Below, one piece after another: positions 19,567-28,808 of a DNA stretch of 35,891 bases. This DNA is from Oscillospiraceae bacterium (lineage in GTDB: Bacteria > Bacillota > Clostridia > Oscillospirales > Oscillospiraceae), in contig JAFRDM010000025.1 of assembly GCA_017403885.1 (NCBI GenBank), forward strand, positions 1 to 35,891, given 5' to 3'. The number at the start of each line of letters is the position of its first letter. The stretch's first letter is position 1. Made by a program: the position numbers and the translations under genes. The notes under the pieces are model-generated. The model did no database searches, was not told where the DNA came from, and saw nothing but the letters and a program-made list of their open reading frames with translations.

Positions 19567-19671
19567 TTGATCAAAGCCTCATCTTTCGTTTCACCGCCGG
19601 ATTTGGCACCTTATGCATCCGCACAGGTTGCCGGGCTTCACAGGGCCGTTCCCTCCACCGCTCTTGATAAG
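19567..19671 (-). ncRNA. SAM-I (S-box) riboswitch aptamer
   Basis: Read on the minus strand, the aptamer shows the S-box core in order: CTTATCAAGAG, GGTGGAGGGA, GGCCCTGTGAAGCCCGGCAACC (shown here in two parts: GGCCCTGTGAAG, CCCGGCAACC), then AAGGTGCCAAATCC and GAAAGATGAG. The P1 ends pair through ATCAA with TTGAT. It controls the ECF-metK operon: bound SAM should stabilise P1 and the downstream terminator. Confidence 0.96.
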
Positions 19672-19691
19672 GTGTTCAGTTTTACGCGGTC

Positions 19692-24424: not shown

Positions 24425-24466
24425 AAAAAGAGCTTCCGGGATCACGAGATCCCGGAAGCTCTTTTT
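24425..24466. terminator. Bidirectional terminator between Rrf2 gene and serine acetyltransferase
   Basis: A perfect 19-bp inverted repeat (24425-24443 with 24448-24466) with an ACGA loop, A-run on one side and T-run on the other. It overlaps the stop codon of the serine acetyltransferase gene. Confidence 0.94.
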
Positions 24467-25343
24467 ACAGCATGGAGCAGTCCAGCACAGGGTTTGTCAC
24501 AAGCTCTTTTGTCAGCGGCGCGTCCGTCACGGCTGCGCGGGCCAGAACCATTTTCCCGGCAGGGACCGAATGCGTCAGCCACACGCTGCCGCCGATGATG
24601 CAGTCGTTCCCGATCTGCGTCTCTCCGCCCAGAATCGTGGCGCCGGAATAGATGATGACGCGATCGCCGATATCCGGATGCCGCTTGATCCCTTTGACGA
24701 GCGTCCCGTCCTCCCCGACCTCAAAGCTCTTGGCGCCGAGCGTGACGTGCTGATACAGCTTGACGCTGCAGCCGATGGTCGTCGTCTCCCCGATCACCAC
24801 GCCGGTGCCGTGGTCGATGAAGAAGGAATCGCCGATGACCGCACCGGGATGGATGTCGATCCCCGTCAGGCGGTGGGCGTACTCCGTCATCATGCGCGGC
24901 AGGAGCGGCACGTTCTCCCGATACAGGATATGGGCCAGACGGTAGGTGCTGATGGCCGTGAAGGCCGGATAGCAGAGGATGACCTCGTCGAGGCTTTTCG
25001 CCGCGGGGTCCCCCTGATAGGCGGCGATCAGGTCGGTCTGCAGCTGCCGCCTGACTTCCGGCAGACTTTGCAGCAGGGCGGCGAAGACCGCCTCCAAAGG
25101 CGGCGAGTCCGGAATGTGTGCAAGGCAGTCCTCCAGCACCCCGGCCGCCTGCAGCAGACGCGATTCCCGTGAGGTGCGGTCAAACGAGAAGCGCGGAAAA
25201 AGCGCGTCGATCATCAGATCGGTAAAGCGCTCCGCCTGTAGGCGCAGTCCAGCAGCGCTGCGGGCTTCGCCGTCAAACGAGGCGTCCAGGCGTTCAAGGG
25301 CGCGGGCGGTCTGACGCGTCAGGATCGGCAGTGTCTGATCCAT
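24465..25343 (-). CDS. Serine O-acetyltransferase (EpsC/CysE type)
   Basis: This 292-residue enzyme makes O-acetylserine from serine and acetyl-CoA, the substrate of CysK. The N-terminal helical domain runs to about 180. The left-handed beta-helix follows with GIDIHPGAVIGDSFFIDHGTGVVIGETTTIG (catalytic His in FIDHGTG) and GDRVIIYSGATILGGETQIGNDCIIGG. The extended C-terminus is typical of the EpsC group. The ATG at 25343 overlaps the cysK stop (TAATATG), with no clear ribosome site, so it is probably translated by reinitiation. The TTG four codons earlier lacks a site as well. Confidence 0.93.
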   Translation of the reverse strand: MDQTLPILTRQTARALERLDASFDGEARSAAGLRLQAERFTDLMIDALFPRFSFDRTSRESRLLQAAGVLEDCLAHIPDSPPLEAVFAALLQSLPEVRRQLQTDLIAAYQGDPAAKSLDEVILCYPAFTAISTYRLAHILYRENVPLLPRMMTEYAHRLTGIDIHPGAVIGDSFFIDHGTGVVIGETTTIGCSVKLYQHVTLGAKSFEVGEDGTLVKGIKRHPDIGDRVIIYSGATILGGETQIGNDCIIGGSVWLTHSVPAGKMVLARAAVTDAPLTKELVTNPVLDCSML

Positions 25344-25344
25344 A

Positions 25345-26277
25345 TTATTCGGCAAAGAGCGGGGTGGAGAGATAGCGGTCGCCTGTGTCGGGCAGGAGCG
25401 CCACGATGGTCTTGCCCTTGTTCTCCGGGCGCTTGGCCAGCCGGATCGCGGCCCAGACCGCCGCGCCGGAGGAGATGCCTACCAGCACGCCCTCTTTCCG
25501 TCCGACCAGCCTGCCGGCGGCAAAGGCGTCCTCGTTCTCCACGGCGATGATCTCATCATAAACGGCGGTGTTCAGCACCTCCGGGACAAAGCCAGCGCCG
25601 ATGCCCTGGATCTTGTGGGTGCCTGCCGTCCCCTTGGAGAGGACCGGCGAGCCGGCAGGCTCTACCGCCACGACCTTTACGGCGGGATTCTGCTCCTTGA
25701 GGTACTCGCCCACGCCGGTGATCGTGCCGCCGGTCCCGACGCCCGCGATAAAGATATCCACCTTGCCGTCGGTGTCCGCCCAGATCTCCGGGCCGGTGGT
25801 GGCCTTGTGGACGGCGGGATTCGCCGGGTTTACAAACTGCCCGGGGATGAAGGCGTTTGGGATCTCTTTCGCCAGCTCGTCAGCTTTGGCGATGGCGCCC
25901 TTCATGCCCTTGGAGCCCTCGGTGAGCACCAGCTCCGCGCCGTAGGCCTTCATCAGCTGTCGGCGTTCGACGCTCATGGTCTCGGGCATGACGATGATGA
26001 TGCGGTAGCCGCGGGCCGCCGCGACGGAGGCGAGGCCGATGCCGGTGTTGCCGGAGGTGGGCTCGACAAGTACAGAGCCCGGCTTCAGCAGGCCCTTCGC
26101 CTCGGCGTCGTCGATCATCGCCTTGGCGATGCGGTCCTTGACGGAGCCCGCGGGGTTGAAGTATTCGAGCTTGGCCAGGAGCTTTGCTTCCAGACCCTCT
26201 TCCTTTTCGATGTTGGTCAGCTCCAGCAGAGGAGTCTTTCCGATCAGCTGATCGGCGGATGTATAGATGTTAGACAT
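25345..26277 (-). CDS. cysK: Cysteine synthase A (O-acetylserine sulfhydrylase)
   Basis: A 310-residue PLP enzyme that makes cysteine from O-acetylserine and sulfide. The PLP Lys is in [11 protein letters not shown], the substrate loop is [12 protein letters not shown], and the phosphate-binding GTGGTITG loop is present, followed by [11 protein letters not shown]. The length and motifs are typical of CysK. AGGAGG lies 7 bases before the ATG; half of it is complementary to the Cys codon region of a short upstream ORF (26304-26366). The serine acetyltransferase follows, so the pair could make a cysteine synthase complex. No promoter was found in the 100 bases upstream, so it may be on the metY transcript. 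Confidence 0.97.
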
Positions 26278-26284
26278 GATAGTT

Positions 26285-26338
26285 CCTCCTGTTTCATTAG
26301 TTTTTAATTAAATGTGAGTTTACCGATAGTGAAACAGG
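26285..26338 (-). promoter_or_regulatory. Candidate cysteine-responsive translational attenuator of cysK
   Basis: On the minus strand CCTGTTTCA (26338-26330) and TGAAACAGG (26296-26288) are perfectly complementary. The first arm lies inside Cys-rich codons 10-13 of the upstream ORF, and the second overlaps the AGG of the cysK Shine-Dalgarno (26290-26285). A ribosome paused at the Cys codons would cover the first arm and free the site. The mechanism is inferred. Confidence 0.72.
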
Positions 26339-26366
26339 GGCAACATCGCTCTCTCAACAGGGACAT
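26304..26366 (-). CDS. Cys-rich upstream leader ORF of cysK (uORF)
   Basis: A 20-codon ORF with ATG at 26366, preceded by AAGGA 9 bases upstream and ending in TAA 27 bases before cysK. Its centre is RERCCPCF, three Cys in four residues (codons 8, 9 and 11). The ribosome site overlaps the stop region of the upstream B3/B4 gene, so it can be read by coupled ribosomes. It has no known protein family and is too short to fold; its likely role is to sense cysteinyl-tRNA during translation. Codon 10-13 sequence is the arm that pairs with the cysK ribosome site. Confidence 0.78.
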
Positions 26367-26383
26367 GGCGGCGATTCCTTCTT

Positions 26384-27076
26384 TCATATGACAGCGGATT
26401 CTTTTATGCCTGGCTTGATGATGATTCCGGTTCCTCCGCAGTATTTTGTTGTCAGGTCAATGATCTTCTGCGCAGTCTCATGCAGCATCTCATCCGGCGT
26501 GGCCTCGTTGCCCTGCACGATATAGAAAATGTTCTGCGCTTTTTCGTCAACTTTGGTCTTCTCCACCTGGCGGACCTCCAGGCGGCAGAGTACCTCGTTG
26601 GCGTCGTCGCAGTAACAGTACTCGTGCGGCGCGACAGGCACAGGCTCCGTCTGGCCGATGGGCACAAAGCGTTCGCTGCCGTCGGTGAAGCGCAGGGTGA
26701 CGTTTCCGTCCACCCGGTCGATGTTATGTGCGCCGAGGGCCAGCTTGCTCTCCAGAGAGATCAGGTTATAGATATCCACCGCCTGGTTGATGTAGAACAT
26801 ACCGTGGTTCTTCTTGAGCAGCTTGATGAGGTTTTCGCTGGCGGGGATGTTCTTGCGGCGCTTGACCCCGGTCTTGTCATGCAGGATGTTGAAGCCCTCC
26901 AGAATTGGGTCGGCGTGGACGTCCAGCTCCGCATACTCCTCATACAGCTCTTCCAGGCGCTTGTCGCGGTATGCGGCCCATTCCGGATCCTCGCCGTGAT
27001 TGTCGAGACCGCAGACCTTTGCGAACACAATCTTGATCCCCGCGTCCAGCACGGCCTGTTCTACATAGAATTCCAT
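26384..27076 (-). CDS. Stand-alone B3/B4 tRNA-editing-like domain protein
   Basis: A 230-residue protein with the fold of the B3/B4 editing domain of bacterial phenylalanyl-tRNA synthetase beta chain, without the rest of the synthetase. It shows HDKTGVKRRKNIPASENLIKLL, INQAVDIYNLISLESKLALGAHNID and the C-terminal YCGGTGIIIKPG, the typical pattern of free B3/B4 proteins. The ATG at 27076 is preceded by GAGGAG; a longer frame is basic and not family-like. It lies 13 bases after metY, so they share a transcript. It may hydrolyse mischarged tRNA or a related amino-acyl compound; the substrate is unknown. Confidence 0.86.
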   Translation of the reverse strand: MEFYVEQAVLDAGIKIVFAKVCGLDNHGEDPEWAAYRDKRLEELYEEYAELDVHADPILEGFNILHDKTGVKRRKNIPASENLIKLLKKNHGMFYINQAVDIYNLISLESKLALGAHNIDRVDGNVTLRFTDGSERFVPIGQTEPVPVAPHEYCYCDDANEVLCRLEVRQVEKTKVDEKAQNIFYIVQGNEATPDEMLHETAQKIIDLTTKYCGGTGIIIKPGIKESAVI

Positions 27077-27089
27077 GTTTCTCCTCCTG

Positions 27090-28382
27090 TTATGCGAGCG
27101 CTGCCGCGGCAGCAAAGCCCTTTTCCAGATCCGCGAGGATATCGTCGATATGCTCGGTGCCGATGGACAGACGAATGGTGTTGGGATGGATATCCGCGGC
27201 CTCCAGCTCCTCCGCGCTCAGCTGAGAGTGCGTCGTGGTGGCCGGGTGGATGACCAGACTCTTCACGTCCGCCACATTGGCCAGCAGCGAGAAGATCTCC
27301 AGCGCGTCGATGAAGGCATGGGCCTCCTTCACGCCGCCCTTGATATCGAAGGTGAAGATGGAGGCGCCGCCGTTGGGGAAGTACTTCTCAAACAGCGCGT
27401 GATCCGGATGATCGGGCAGCGAGGGGTGGTTGACCTTCTCCACCTGCGGATGCCCGGCGAGAAACTCCACCACCTTTTTGGTGTTCTCCGCATGGCGGTC
27501 GAGGCGCAGGGAGAGGGTCTCCACGCCCTGCAGCAGCAGAAAGGCGTTGAAGGGAGAAATGCAGGCACCGGTGTCACGAAGAATAATAGCCCGCAGATAG
27601 GTAATGAAGGCAGCGGGACCGGCCGCGTCCACAAAGGAGATGCCGTGATAGCTGGGATTGGCCTCCGCAATAGGCGCAAACTTACCGGCGGCCTTCCAGT
27701 CGAACTTGCCGGAATCCACCACGATGCCGCCGAGCGTCGTGCCATGGCCGCCGATGAACTTGGTGGCGGAATGCAGCACGATATCCGCGCCATGCTCAAT
27801 GGGCCGGAACAGATAGGGCGTGCCAAAGGTGTTGTCGATCACAAGGGGGATCTGATGGGCGTGGGCGATCGCCGCAATGGCGTCGATGTCCGGAATGTCG
27901 GAATTGGGATTGCCCAGCGTTTCCAGATAGATCGCCTTGGTGTTTGGCCGAACGGCGGCCTTTACCTCATCCAGATCGTGCGCGTCCACAAAGGTGGTCT
28001 CAATGCCGTAGAGCGGCAGGGTATGGGCCAGAAGATTATAGCTGCCGCCGTAAATCGTCTTCTGCGCAACGATGTGGTCGCCTTTCTGCGCCAGCGCCTC
28101 GATGACATAGGTTACCGCTGCTGCGCCGGAGGCAAGAGCCAGCGCGCCCACGCCGCCCTCCAGCGCGGCGAGGCGCTTTTCCAGTACGTCCTGGGTGGAG
28201 TTTGTGAGTCTGCCGTAGATGTTTCCGGCGTCCGTCAGGTTGAAGCGTGCCGCTGCATGGGCGGAGTTGTGGAAGACATAGGAGGTCGTCTGGTAGATGG
28301 GGACGGCGCGTGCGTCGGTGGCGGGATCGGCCTGTTCCTGACCGACATGAAGCTGCAGCGTTTCAAATTTATAGTTGGACAT
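27090..28382 (-). CDS. metY: O-acetylhomoserine sulfhydrylase (Cys/Met metabolism PLP enzyme)
   Basis: A 430-residue PLP enzyme that makes homocysteine from O-acetylhomoserine and sulfide. The PLP Lys is in [16 protein letters not shown], preceded by the [19 protein letters not shown] region, and the family start is [11 protein letters not shown]. The length and insertions match the MetY group rather than MetB/MetC. The ATG at 28382 is chosen; an in-frame TTG six bases earlier has no site of its own. The ribosome site AAGGGG lies in the loop of a small hairpin. It is the first gene of the group with the B3/B4 protein, and probably cysK and the acetyltransferase. Confidence 0.95.
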
Positions 28383-28383
28383 G

Positions 28384-28402
28384 ATCAATACCCCTTATTG
28401 AT
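28384..28402 (-). promoter_or_regulatory. Hairpin presenting the metY ribosome site in its loop
   Basis: ATCAATA (28384-28390) and TATTGAT (28396-28402) are perfect inverted repeats around AGGGG (minus strand). The metY ATG follows one base after the stem. It could be a protein or RNA switch site, or an operator for the Rrf2 protein. Confidence 0.6.
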
Positions 28403-28463: not shown

Positions 28464-28527
28464 GGAACAAGGTCATCGGTCGATGGAGCCGAATATATGC
28501 GGCTCCATGACTTTATGGCCTTGTTCC
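28464..28527 (-). repeat. 64-base nested inverted repeat in the metY leader
   Basis: An outer pair of 13-base arms (28464-28476 and 28515-28527; 12 of 13 complementary) encloses a perfect inner 9-bp stem (ATGGAGCCG 28483-28491 and CGGCTCCAT 28500-28508). The arms are separated by 6-base internal loops. No coding sequence explains it. It lies between the attenuator terminator and metY. Confidence 0.8.
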
Positions 28528-28600
28528 GACGTCATTCGACCCTTTCGGAAATTATGACGGAGCAGCCGCTCTAAATAAATCTTCAAATGCAATCACCCAC

Positions 28601-28638
28601 AAAAACAAAATAACCGGGGAGCCCGTCTGGGTCCCCGG
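28601..28638 (-). terminator. Leader terminator (attenuator) upstream of metY
   Basis: On the minus strand CCGGGGA-CCC pairs with GGG-C-TCCCCGG (28638-28614, one bulged base, AGAC loop) followed by TTATTTTGTTTTTG. It lies about 230 bases before metY and 25 bases after the Cys/Met-rich leader ORF, the place of an attenuator. Confidence 0.87.
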
Positions 28639-28662: not shown

Positions 28663-28743
28663 TCAAATGGGCAAGGCAAAGCACACGCGCATCTCACAGC
28701 GCATGTCACAACACATCATGCAGTTGAAGCTCGCCTTACCCAT
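28663..28743 (-). CDS. Cys/Met-rich leader peptide upstream of metY
   Basis: A 26-codon ORF starting at ATG 28743 behind a strong GGAGG site 5 bases upstream and ending in TGA. Residues 8-21 read CMMCCDMRCEMRVC: 5 Cys and 4 internal Met codons within 14 residues, far above chance. Its first 11 bases (ATGGGTAAGGC) and bases near its end (GCCTTGCCCAT) are complementary except for one G-U pair, so the ORF folds on itself when untranslated. It is transcribed from a near-consensus promoter and followed by a terminator, as in amino-acid attenuators. No homologous protein family is recognised. Confidence 0.8.
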   Translation of the reverse strand: MGKASFNCMMCCDMRCEMRVCFALPI

Positions 28744-28779: not shown

Positions 28780-28808
28780 TTTATAGCACACAAGAATTCT
28801 CTTGTCAA
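28780..28808 (-). promoter_or_regulatory. Promoter of the metY leader transcript
   Basis: On the minus strand TTGACA (28808-28803), 17-base spacer and TATAAA (28785-28780) with an extended TGC. It starts 9 bases after the stop of the DUF2889-like gene. Confidence 0.92.

Follow-up and report, generated by a model that had tools for sequence, protein, structure and literature searches.

Introduction

In translational attenuation of the erm and cat type, a ribosome halted within a leader ORF frees a masked SD, induction being brought about by an antibiotic together with the nascent peptide.

For cysteine, the closest described systems are the polycysteine short ORFs of mycobacteria (Canestrari et al. 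2020, as reported in PMC9094748 and PMC9031893). In these accounts the ORFs are leaderless and bear runs of Cys codons, and their rate of elongation reports cysteine and controls the downstream gene. In Actinobacteria, according to the extract of PMC1262725, Cys-codon leader peptides have been predicted upstream of cys operons and of cbs, most of them lacking a terminator. The sulfur genes of Clostridium perfringens are under Cys T-box and S-box control, with cysK under a Cys T-box (PMC2940859, in extract). Leader-peptide attenuators are also described for His in bacilli, with a transcription terminator (PMC2965389, in extract), and as a Leu-rich leader in S. aureus (PMC5794164).

This report concerns a short upstream ORF (uORF) with Cys codons that precedes cysK in an Oscillospiraceae bacterium. 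A preliminary description had proposed that its Cys region masks the cysK SD and that a ribosome stalled for lack of Cys-tRNA releases it. The sequence and its relatives point to a codon pair, CGA-TGT, as the core of a putative cysteine sensor, the masking of the SD being one of its possible outputs.

Materials and methods

The cysK leaders came from family genomes and from contigs of named genomes; leaders shorter than 125 nt and those with identical last 60 nt were excluded. The pooled set comprised 228 distinct family-level cysK leaders, which are part of the family matches listed (about half of the further listed ones were left out), and the motif was sought at positions −125 to −25. It took in 15 of 55 loci that had not been included in the 33-leader set described below. 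To simulate a stalled ribosome, 28 nt around the first Cys codon were blocked and the cost of opening the SD was recomputed.

Results

A Cys-codon uORF precedes cysK

The window, i.e. the whole stretch of DNA analysed (35,891 nt; Oscillospiraceae bacterium, GCA_017403885.1, contig JAFRDM010000025.1, positions 1 to 35,891, forward strand), carries the same-strand gene string metY, B3/4 gene, cysK and cysE-like gene, in that order, on its minus strand (Table 1). The start of the B3/4 gene was placed at 27076 from an SD-ATG; we take its domain (PF03483) to be tRNA-editing-like, here lying beside Cys and Met genes.

Table 1. Features of the metY-cysK locus and its leaders in the window
Feature	Position	Strand	Evidence
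SAM (S-box) riboswitch	19576-19673	-	Rfam, 77 bits
cysE-like serine O-acetyltransferase; overlaps cysK end	24465..25355	-	TIGR01172, E 2.5e-46, below curated cut-off
cysK, cysteine synthase A (controlled gene)	25345..26277	-	TIGR01139, 462 bits, above cut-off
Arm B, TGAAACAGGAGGAACTATC, contains cysK SD AGGAGG (26290-26285)	26278..26296	-	Predicted fold
uORF before cysK, 20 codons	26304..26366	-	ATG at 26366, TAA ending 26304
Arm A, GATGTTGCCCCTGTTTCA, contains all three Cys codons	26330..26347	-	Predicted fold
CGA-TGT, conserved rare Arg-Cys codon pair (putative sensor)	26343..26348	-	
AAGGA, SD-like site of uORF, 9 nt 5′ of uORF ATG	26376..26380	-	
B3/4-domain protein, stand-alone, between metY and cysK	26384..27076	-	PF03483, E 3.6e-20
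metY, O-acetylhomoserine/O-acetylserine sulfhydrylase	27090..28388	-	TIGR01326, 618 bits, above cut-off
metY leader ORF, core LRHNFRKGRM, TTG start inferred	28473..28586	-	
CGA-ATG codon pair of metY leader	28538-28533	-	
Terminator-like hairpin then T-rich tract, 3′ of MGKASFNCMMCCDMRCEMRVCFALPI	28601..28638	-	Fold −27.2 kcal/mol, z −3.27
Cys/Met-rich leader peptide MGKASFNCMMCCDMRCEMRVCFALPI	28663..28743	-	
Promoter-like TTGACA-17-TATAAA, 5′ of MGKASFNCMMCCDMRCEMRVCFALPI	28780..28808	-	Read by eye

As the preliminary description had stated, cysK is preceded by a 20-codon uORF with an AAGGA site and three Cys codons, of which those beyond the CGA-TGT pair lie at 26342-26340 and 26336-26334 (minus strand). 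A second in-frame ATG at 26387, absent from that description, gives a 27-codon version. It overlaps the stop of the preceding B3/4 gene as ATGA, and the uORF may therefore be translated by coupling to that gene. The promoter scan of the window found no promoter-like site just 5′ of the uORF, which together with the same-strand gene string bears out the earlier view of a unit acting within a longer operon; nor did the terminator scan find an intrinsic terminator between the uORF and cysK.

The nine bases CCTGTTTCA (26338-26330, codons 10-13) are, as had been noticed, the exact complement of TGAAACAGG (26296-26288), which overlaps the AGGAGG of cysK. The helix predicted between arms A and B is longer than these nine bases and extends to the base before the cysK ATG (26277). 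The predicted probability that the SD is paired to the arm was 0.78; when arms were swapped it averaged 0.14. A perfect SD-overlapping complement of at least nine bases arose by chance in 440 of 20000 codon-order shuffles of the uORF (2.2%) and in 51 of 20000 base shuffles (0.26%). The folding energy of the window leader was not unusual compared with shuffles (z 0.27 and z −0.62 in two runs) and, with z near zero, the stability of the fold was discarded as evidence. Taken as a single sequence, the window offers modest evidence, barely beyond chance, and the weight of the case was therefore placed on its relatives.

CGA-TGT recurs in frame in the cysK leaders of relatives

In the first 140 leaders, CGATGT was found at −125 to −25 in 38, while 3.4 were expected from dinucleotide content; it ranked second in hexamer enrichment, behind the promoter hexamer TTGACA. 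An ATG lay open upstream in the frame of CGA-TGT at 37 of 39 sites, the other frames giving 3 and 10. A later set had CGATGT in 13 of 33 leaders (14 of its 15 sites being in frame), and another, whose genes were more distant, in 3 of 40, all 4 sites being in frame. When the sets were pooled, 56 of the 228 leaders held 61 sites, 56 of them with an ATG in frame (5 and 14 in the other frames). An in-frame ATG...CGA-TGT ORF was present in 52 of 228 cysK leaders, although certain of these, the long ORFs L155 and L314, resemble chance. By hand count, 32 of the 52 came from family genomes, representing 26 genera, and the other 20 from named contigs.

The search of relatives for the ORF and its arm pair, proposed in the preliminary description, had a mixed outcome: the ORF recurs and native arms pair better than swapped ones (see below), but 172 of the 228 family leaders have no CGATGT uORF and strong SD maskers are few. 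The uORF was also missing from L009 (G004) and L031 (G109), both of the window's genus, and no site was found at −125 to −25 in any of the 26 class-level leaders read (4 of 30 loci, with an unreadable start, were left out). To judge from this distribution, the CGA-TGT element is a lineage trait that is often gained or lost.

The shortest leader peptides are MKRC* and MFKRC*, the longest run to some 30 residues or more, and they have little in common apart from Arg-Cys; in many (MKRC*, MFKRC*, MFLLKERC*) there is a single Cys codon. What had been called a Cys-rich ORF thus does represent a conserved class of Cys-codon leaders found in many genera, but the core of that class is the CGA-TGT pair, often with just one Cys. 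The pair was spelled CGA-TGT in 56 of the 67 Arg-Cys pairs of the uORFs, and in 3 of 118 such pairs in 364 long flank ORFs, which were drawn from both strands and may include spurious ORFs. In the same flank ORFs CGA accounted for 5.2% of Arg codons and TGT for 25.6% of Cys codons. The uORFs thus retain the least used Arg codon next to the less used of the two Cys codons.

When control genes were examined, CGATGT was found in 0 of 23 trpE and 1 of 27 ilvB family leaders. A wider CGA rule that included trpE and ilvB leaders showed no enrichment, and both were reused as these controls. When five whole genomes were searched for the motif, with its spacing to SD and ATG taken into account, hits lay far above the reversed-pattern control; CGATGTYG is, however, frequent on the antisense strand of coding DNA, which made this search uninformative. 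At cysE loci, in-frame CGATGT short ORFs were seen in 2 of 30 (L256 and L257, the latter on the other strand), and no claim is made for them. A DNA similarity search in plasmids returned no match, and Pfam and NCBIfam contained no family for the leader peptides, one metY peptide giving two hits below the cut-off.

Conservation is in part visible at the nucleotide level, CGATGTCG occurring in 17 of the 140 leaders and CGATGTTG in 18, as it would if CGATGTYG were recognised by a regulator that binds DNA or RNA, the ORF being incidental. The frame preference of the pooled sites (56 of 61) makes this very improbable, as do a distance from site to cysK that ranges over about 60 nt and the persistence of CGA in metY leaders before a different codon, ATG.

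Two further observations were made in these leaders. MAGs named Fibrobacter (L097, L098, L101, L103, L105, L113, L115, L116 and L119) have cysK genes 82–87% identical to that of the window, which is a matter of transfer or of a binning error. Just 5′ of the uORF in L002, L004, L016, L074, L075 and others, a TTGACA/TATAAT promoter is followed by a palindrome like AACCTACTTGAAAGGTTGGTA; this arrangement lies about 100–130 nt 5′ of cysK, and the palindrome, which resembles an Rrf2/CymR-type operator, may represent a further layer of control.

The Cys region is predicted to mask the SD in a minority of leaders

Duplex energies calculated for 38 leaders showed that the native Cys arm outpairs the arms of other leaders in nine of ten settings (P ≤ 0.006), the remaining one not being significant (P = 0.12). 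When 52 leaders were folded in full, SD-Cys arm pairing had a mean probability of 0.276 for native arms and 0.136 for permuted ones (P = 2 × 10–5). The probability was at least 0.5 in 15 of the 52, including the window, when 6.6 were expected (P = 1.4 × 10–4). The first version of this test predicted SD masking in 14 of 52 leaders, and there the paired comparison of the native with the mean swapped probability was not significant (P = 0.14), since the values for most leaders are at zero. Since CGATGT is present in every swapped arm too, the excess of native pairing cannot be put down to the motif alone.

The distribution is two-humped. Strong maskers (among them the window, L072, L073, L076, L106, L074, L002, L311 and L312) stand apart from a majority with no predicted helix, and in 37 of the 52 uORF leaders no strong SD-arm helix was predicted; values for single leaders vary with the 5′ end chosen (0.05 and 0.98 for L016). 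The masking put forward in the preliminary description is thus upheld by prediction for the window, but at 14–15 of 52 relatives it is not family-wide. Judged by eye, the partner of the SD appears to differ among lineages: the SD and spacer would pair with the stretch from GATGT onward in the window and in L076, and in L002, L074 and L311 a CCTCC just 5′ of the motif would pair with the SD while GATGTC pairs with a GACAT upstream of it. A rule relating the Y of CGATGTY to AACAT or GACAT (an R-ACAT complement) gave no clear split.

In the stall model, the cost of opening the window SD fell from 11.5 kcal/mol for the free leader to 4.4 kcal/mol with a ribosome at the first Cys codon, as the preliminary description would predict. 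It was 7.4 kcal/mol with a ribosome at the stop codon and averaged 9.0 kcal/mol over 14 control positions, two of which (0.14) matched the Cys stall in freeing the SD. Over the 52 leaders, the gain at the Cys stall exceeded that at controls (P = 0.003) and reached at least 2 kcal/mol in 19; the stall and stop states did not differ significantly (P = 0.10, n = 36).

The uORF could also sense Cys through a stall and act by means other than SD masking, such as coupling or reinitiation, access of Rho or protection of the mRNA. The many leaders without a strong predicted helix would be accommodated in this way, as would MKRC* and MFKRC* uORFs, which have the sensor without clear pairing, and the ATGA overlap upstream in the window suggests coupling. 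The excess of native over permuted pairing and the strong helix of the window speak for masking, and such a purely non-masking route is considered unlikely, if still a serious contender. An intrinsic-terminator-like site between CGATGT and cysK was present in only 1 of the 52 leaders; intrinsic transcription attenuation is therefore unlikely to be the route in most of them. As to chance, the near-zero folding z-scores and the 2.2% of codon-order shuffles with an equal complement would allow the ORF and complement of the window to be fortuitous. Set against the in-frame enrichment in several separately fetched family sets and the superiority of native over swapped pairing, that explanation is scarcely credible.

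A methionine counterpart precedes metY

The top hexamer in 46 metY leaders (4 of 50 having been dropped for length or start) was CGAATG, found in 34 leaders when 3.9 were expected. Of its 35 sites, 30 had an ATG in frame, the other two frames giving 3 and 10. The leader peptide is conserved around L-R-x-N-F-R-x-G-R-M. In the 27 conserved GRM peptides, which were found by amino-acid pattern, the Arg before Met was always CGA (27 of 27), while at the other two Arg positions, where many codons are used, CGA appeared in 0 of 26 and 5 of 26. This metY leader peptide, which is possibly a nascent-peptide sensor of methionine, was also seen in L283, L284, L290, L296, L301, L308 and others. For a putative masking of the metY SD by the GRM region, the predicted gain was 1.13 kcal/mol as against 0.63 at controls (P = 0.08, n = 34). 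In the window, a long hairpin, GGAACAAGG...CCTTGTTCC (28533-28474, minus strand), begins a few bases 3′ of the CGA-ATG of the metY leader.

In-frame CGA-TGT was present in 52 and CGA-ATG in 4 of the 228 cysK leaders; in metY leaders, CGA-ATG was present in 29 and CGA-TGT in 9 of 46. The codon after CGA thus follows the gene, TGT before cysK and ATG before metY. As CGA is common to both kinds of leader, it might be thought that what is sensed is arginine, via slow CGA, or the general speed of translation, and not Cys. Since the next codon tracks the gene, we hold this to be most doubtful. One cysK leader ORF, in L337, reads CGA-ATG-TGT-CGA-TGT-TGT-stop and so unites the Met and Cys sensors.

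Farther upstream in the window lies the Cys/Met-rich leader peptide MGKASFNCMMCCDMRCEMRVCFALPI with its hairpin, which was not among the results of the simple terminator scan. The TTGACA-17-TATAAA before it was missed by the promoter scan, whose rule demands T at the last position. Peptides similar to MGKASFNCMMCCDMRCEMRVCFALPI (CCDxRCExR core), with hairpins, precede the cysK uORF in L072, L073 and L085; in the window, a peptide and hairpin of this type precede metY instead. From its sequence, this arrangement resembles a conventional transcription attenuator that would sense Cys and Met, and the operon may therefore be set twice, at transcription and then at the translation of cysK.

Discussion

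The uORF, its CGA-TGT core, the SD complement and the recurrence of the in-frame core in relatives are features of the DNA itself. Together with the fold and stall models, they suggest that the uORF is a cysteine sensor through which the supply of Cys-tRNA controls cysK by translational attenuation, a reading to which we assign a probability of about 0.68. When Cys-tRNA is ample, the ribosome would clear the Cys codons, the Cys region would pair with the cysK SD and initiation would be low. When it is short, the ribosome would halt while CGA occupies the P site and TGT the A site; by covering the Cys region it would leave the SD open, and CysK would be made. Being rare and slow, the codons CGA and TGT would make this halt sharper. 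In relatives with no predicted Cys-region/SD helix, the sensor would have to use another route (a different helix, coupling or Rho). According to the extract of PMC4046918, CGA is read slowly in the his leader of Salmonella, and NNC codons, Cys included, are read faster than NNU codons. By analogy, CGA-TGT would fit a slow-codon sensor in the Oscillospiraceae lineage.

A broader proposal, which we regard as evenly balanced between true and false, is that Oscillospiraceae-type gut bacteria share a leader-ORF code in which slow CGA stands directly 5′ of the sensed codon, TGT for cysK and ATG for metY. The ribosome would be primed to halt when the tRNA for that codon is short, so that a single codon would suffice, and the downstream coupling would vary freely by lineage, through SD masking in the window's group and other routes elsewhere. 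If this is true, leader ORFs that are absent from current annotation and from Rfam set the synthesis of cysteine and methionine in a large group of bacteria from gut and rumen. The parallel between CGA-TGT and CGA-ATG would offer a natural test of whether a slow P-site codon amplifies the halt at the next hungry codon, and the signature, readable from the genome, would predict control of sulfur amino acids in places that lack T-boxes and CymR sites. Searches of open-licence PubMed Central papers turned up no description of CGA-primed leaders.

As regards systems known in Firmicutes, the locus is like C. perfringens in that a clostridial cysK would be under cysteine-responsive control (here predicted). 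The T-box of that species, as given in the extract consulted, is a tRNA-binding RNA with a TGC specifier, unlike the window leader. At the Rfam gathering score no T-box was found in the window (only the SAM riboswitch matched), and none was found by Rfam in 11 uORF-bearing or related cysK loci, where only two tRNAs matched. The His and Leu leaders, as far as the extracts describe them, are also amino-acid leader peptides, but work with transcription terminators and other amino acids; between the cysK uORFs and cysK a terminator was seen in 1 of 52 leaders and none in the window.

The likeness to the erm type lies in an SD that is predicted to be masked in the window and freed by a stall (pairing probability 0.78; 11.5 to 4.4 kcal/mol), as it is predicted to be masked in 15 of 52 relatives. 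The window differs from the erm and cat type in needing only two arms, and from the erm type in that the cysK leader peptides are not conserved beyond Arg-Cys, the signal being, on our reading, a hungry codon. The predicted actinobacterial Cys leaders, which are also among the closest in logic, differ from the window in having their Cys runs near the stop, and the extract of PMC1262725 describes no SD-masking arm.

Closest in logic are the mycobacterial polycysteine ORFs, likewise short Cys-codon ORFs before sulfur genes (in the window, three Cys codons and cysK). As the extracts present them they are leaderless, whereas the uORF of the window has an AAGGA and follows a same-strand gene, and the ORFs of relatives, in a different phylum, have an SD or follow a promoter or a gene. 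The mycobacterial ORFs have runs of Cys codons; the window has two adjacent Cys codons plus one and many relatives have a single one, and the signature here is CGA-TGT. By analogy with these systems, the cysK leader is best read as a variant of ribosome-mediated attenuation that would share the mycobacterial logic and have a codon signature of its own.
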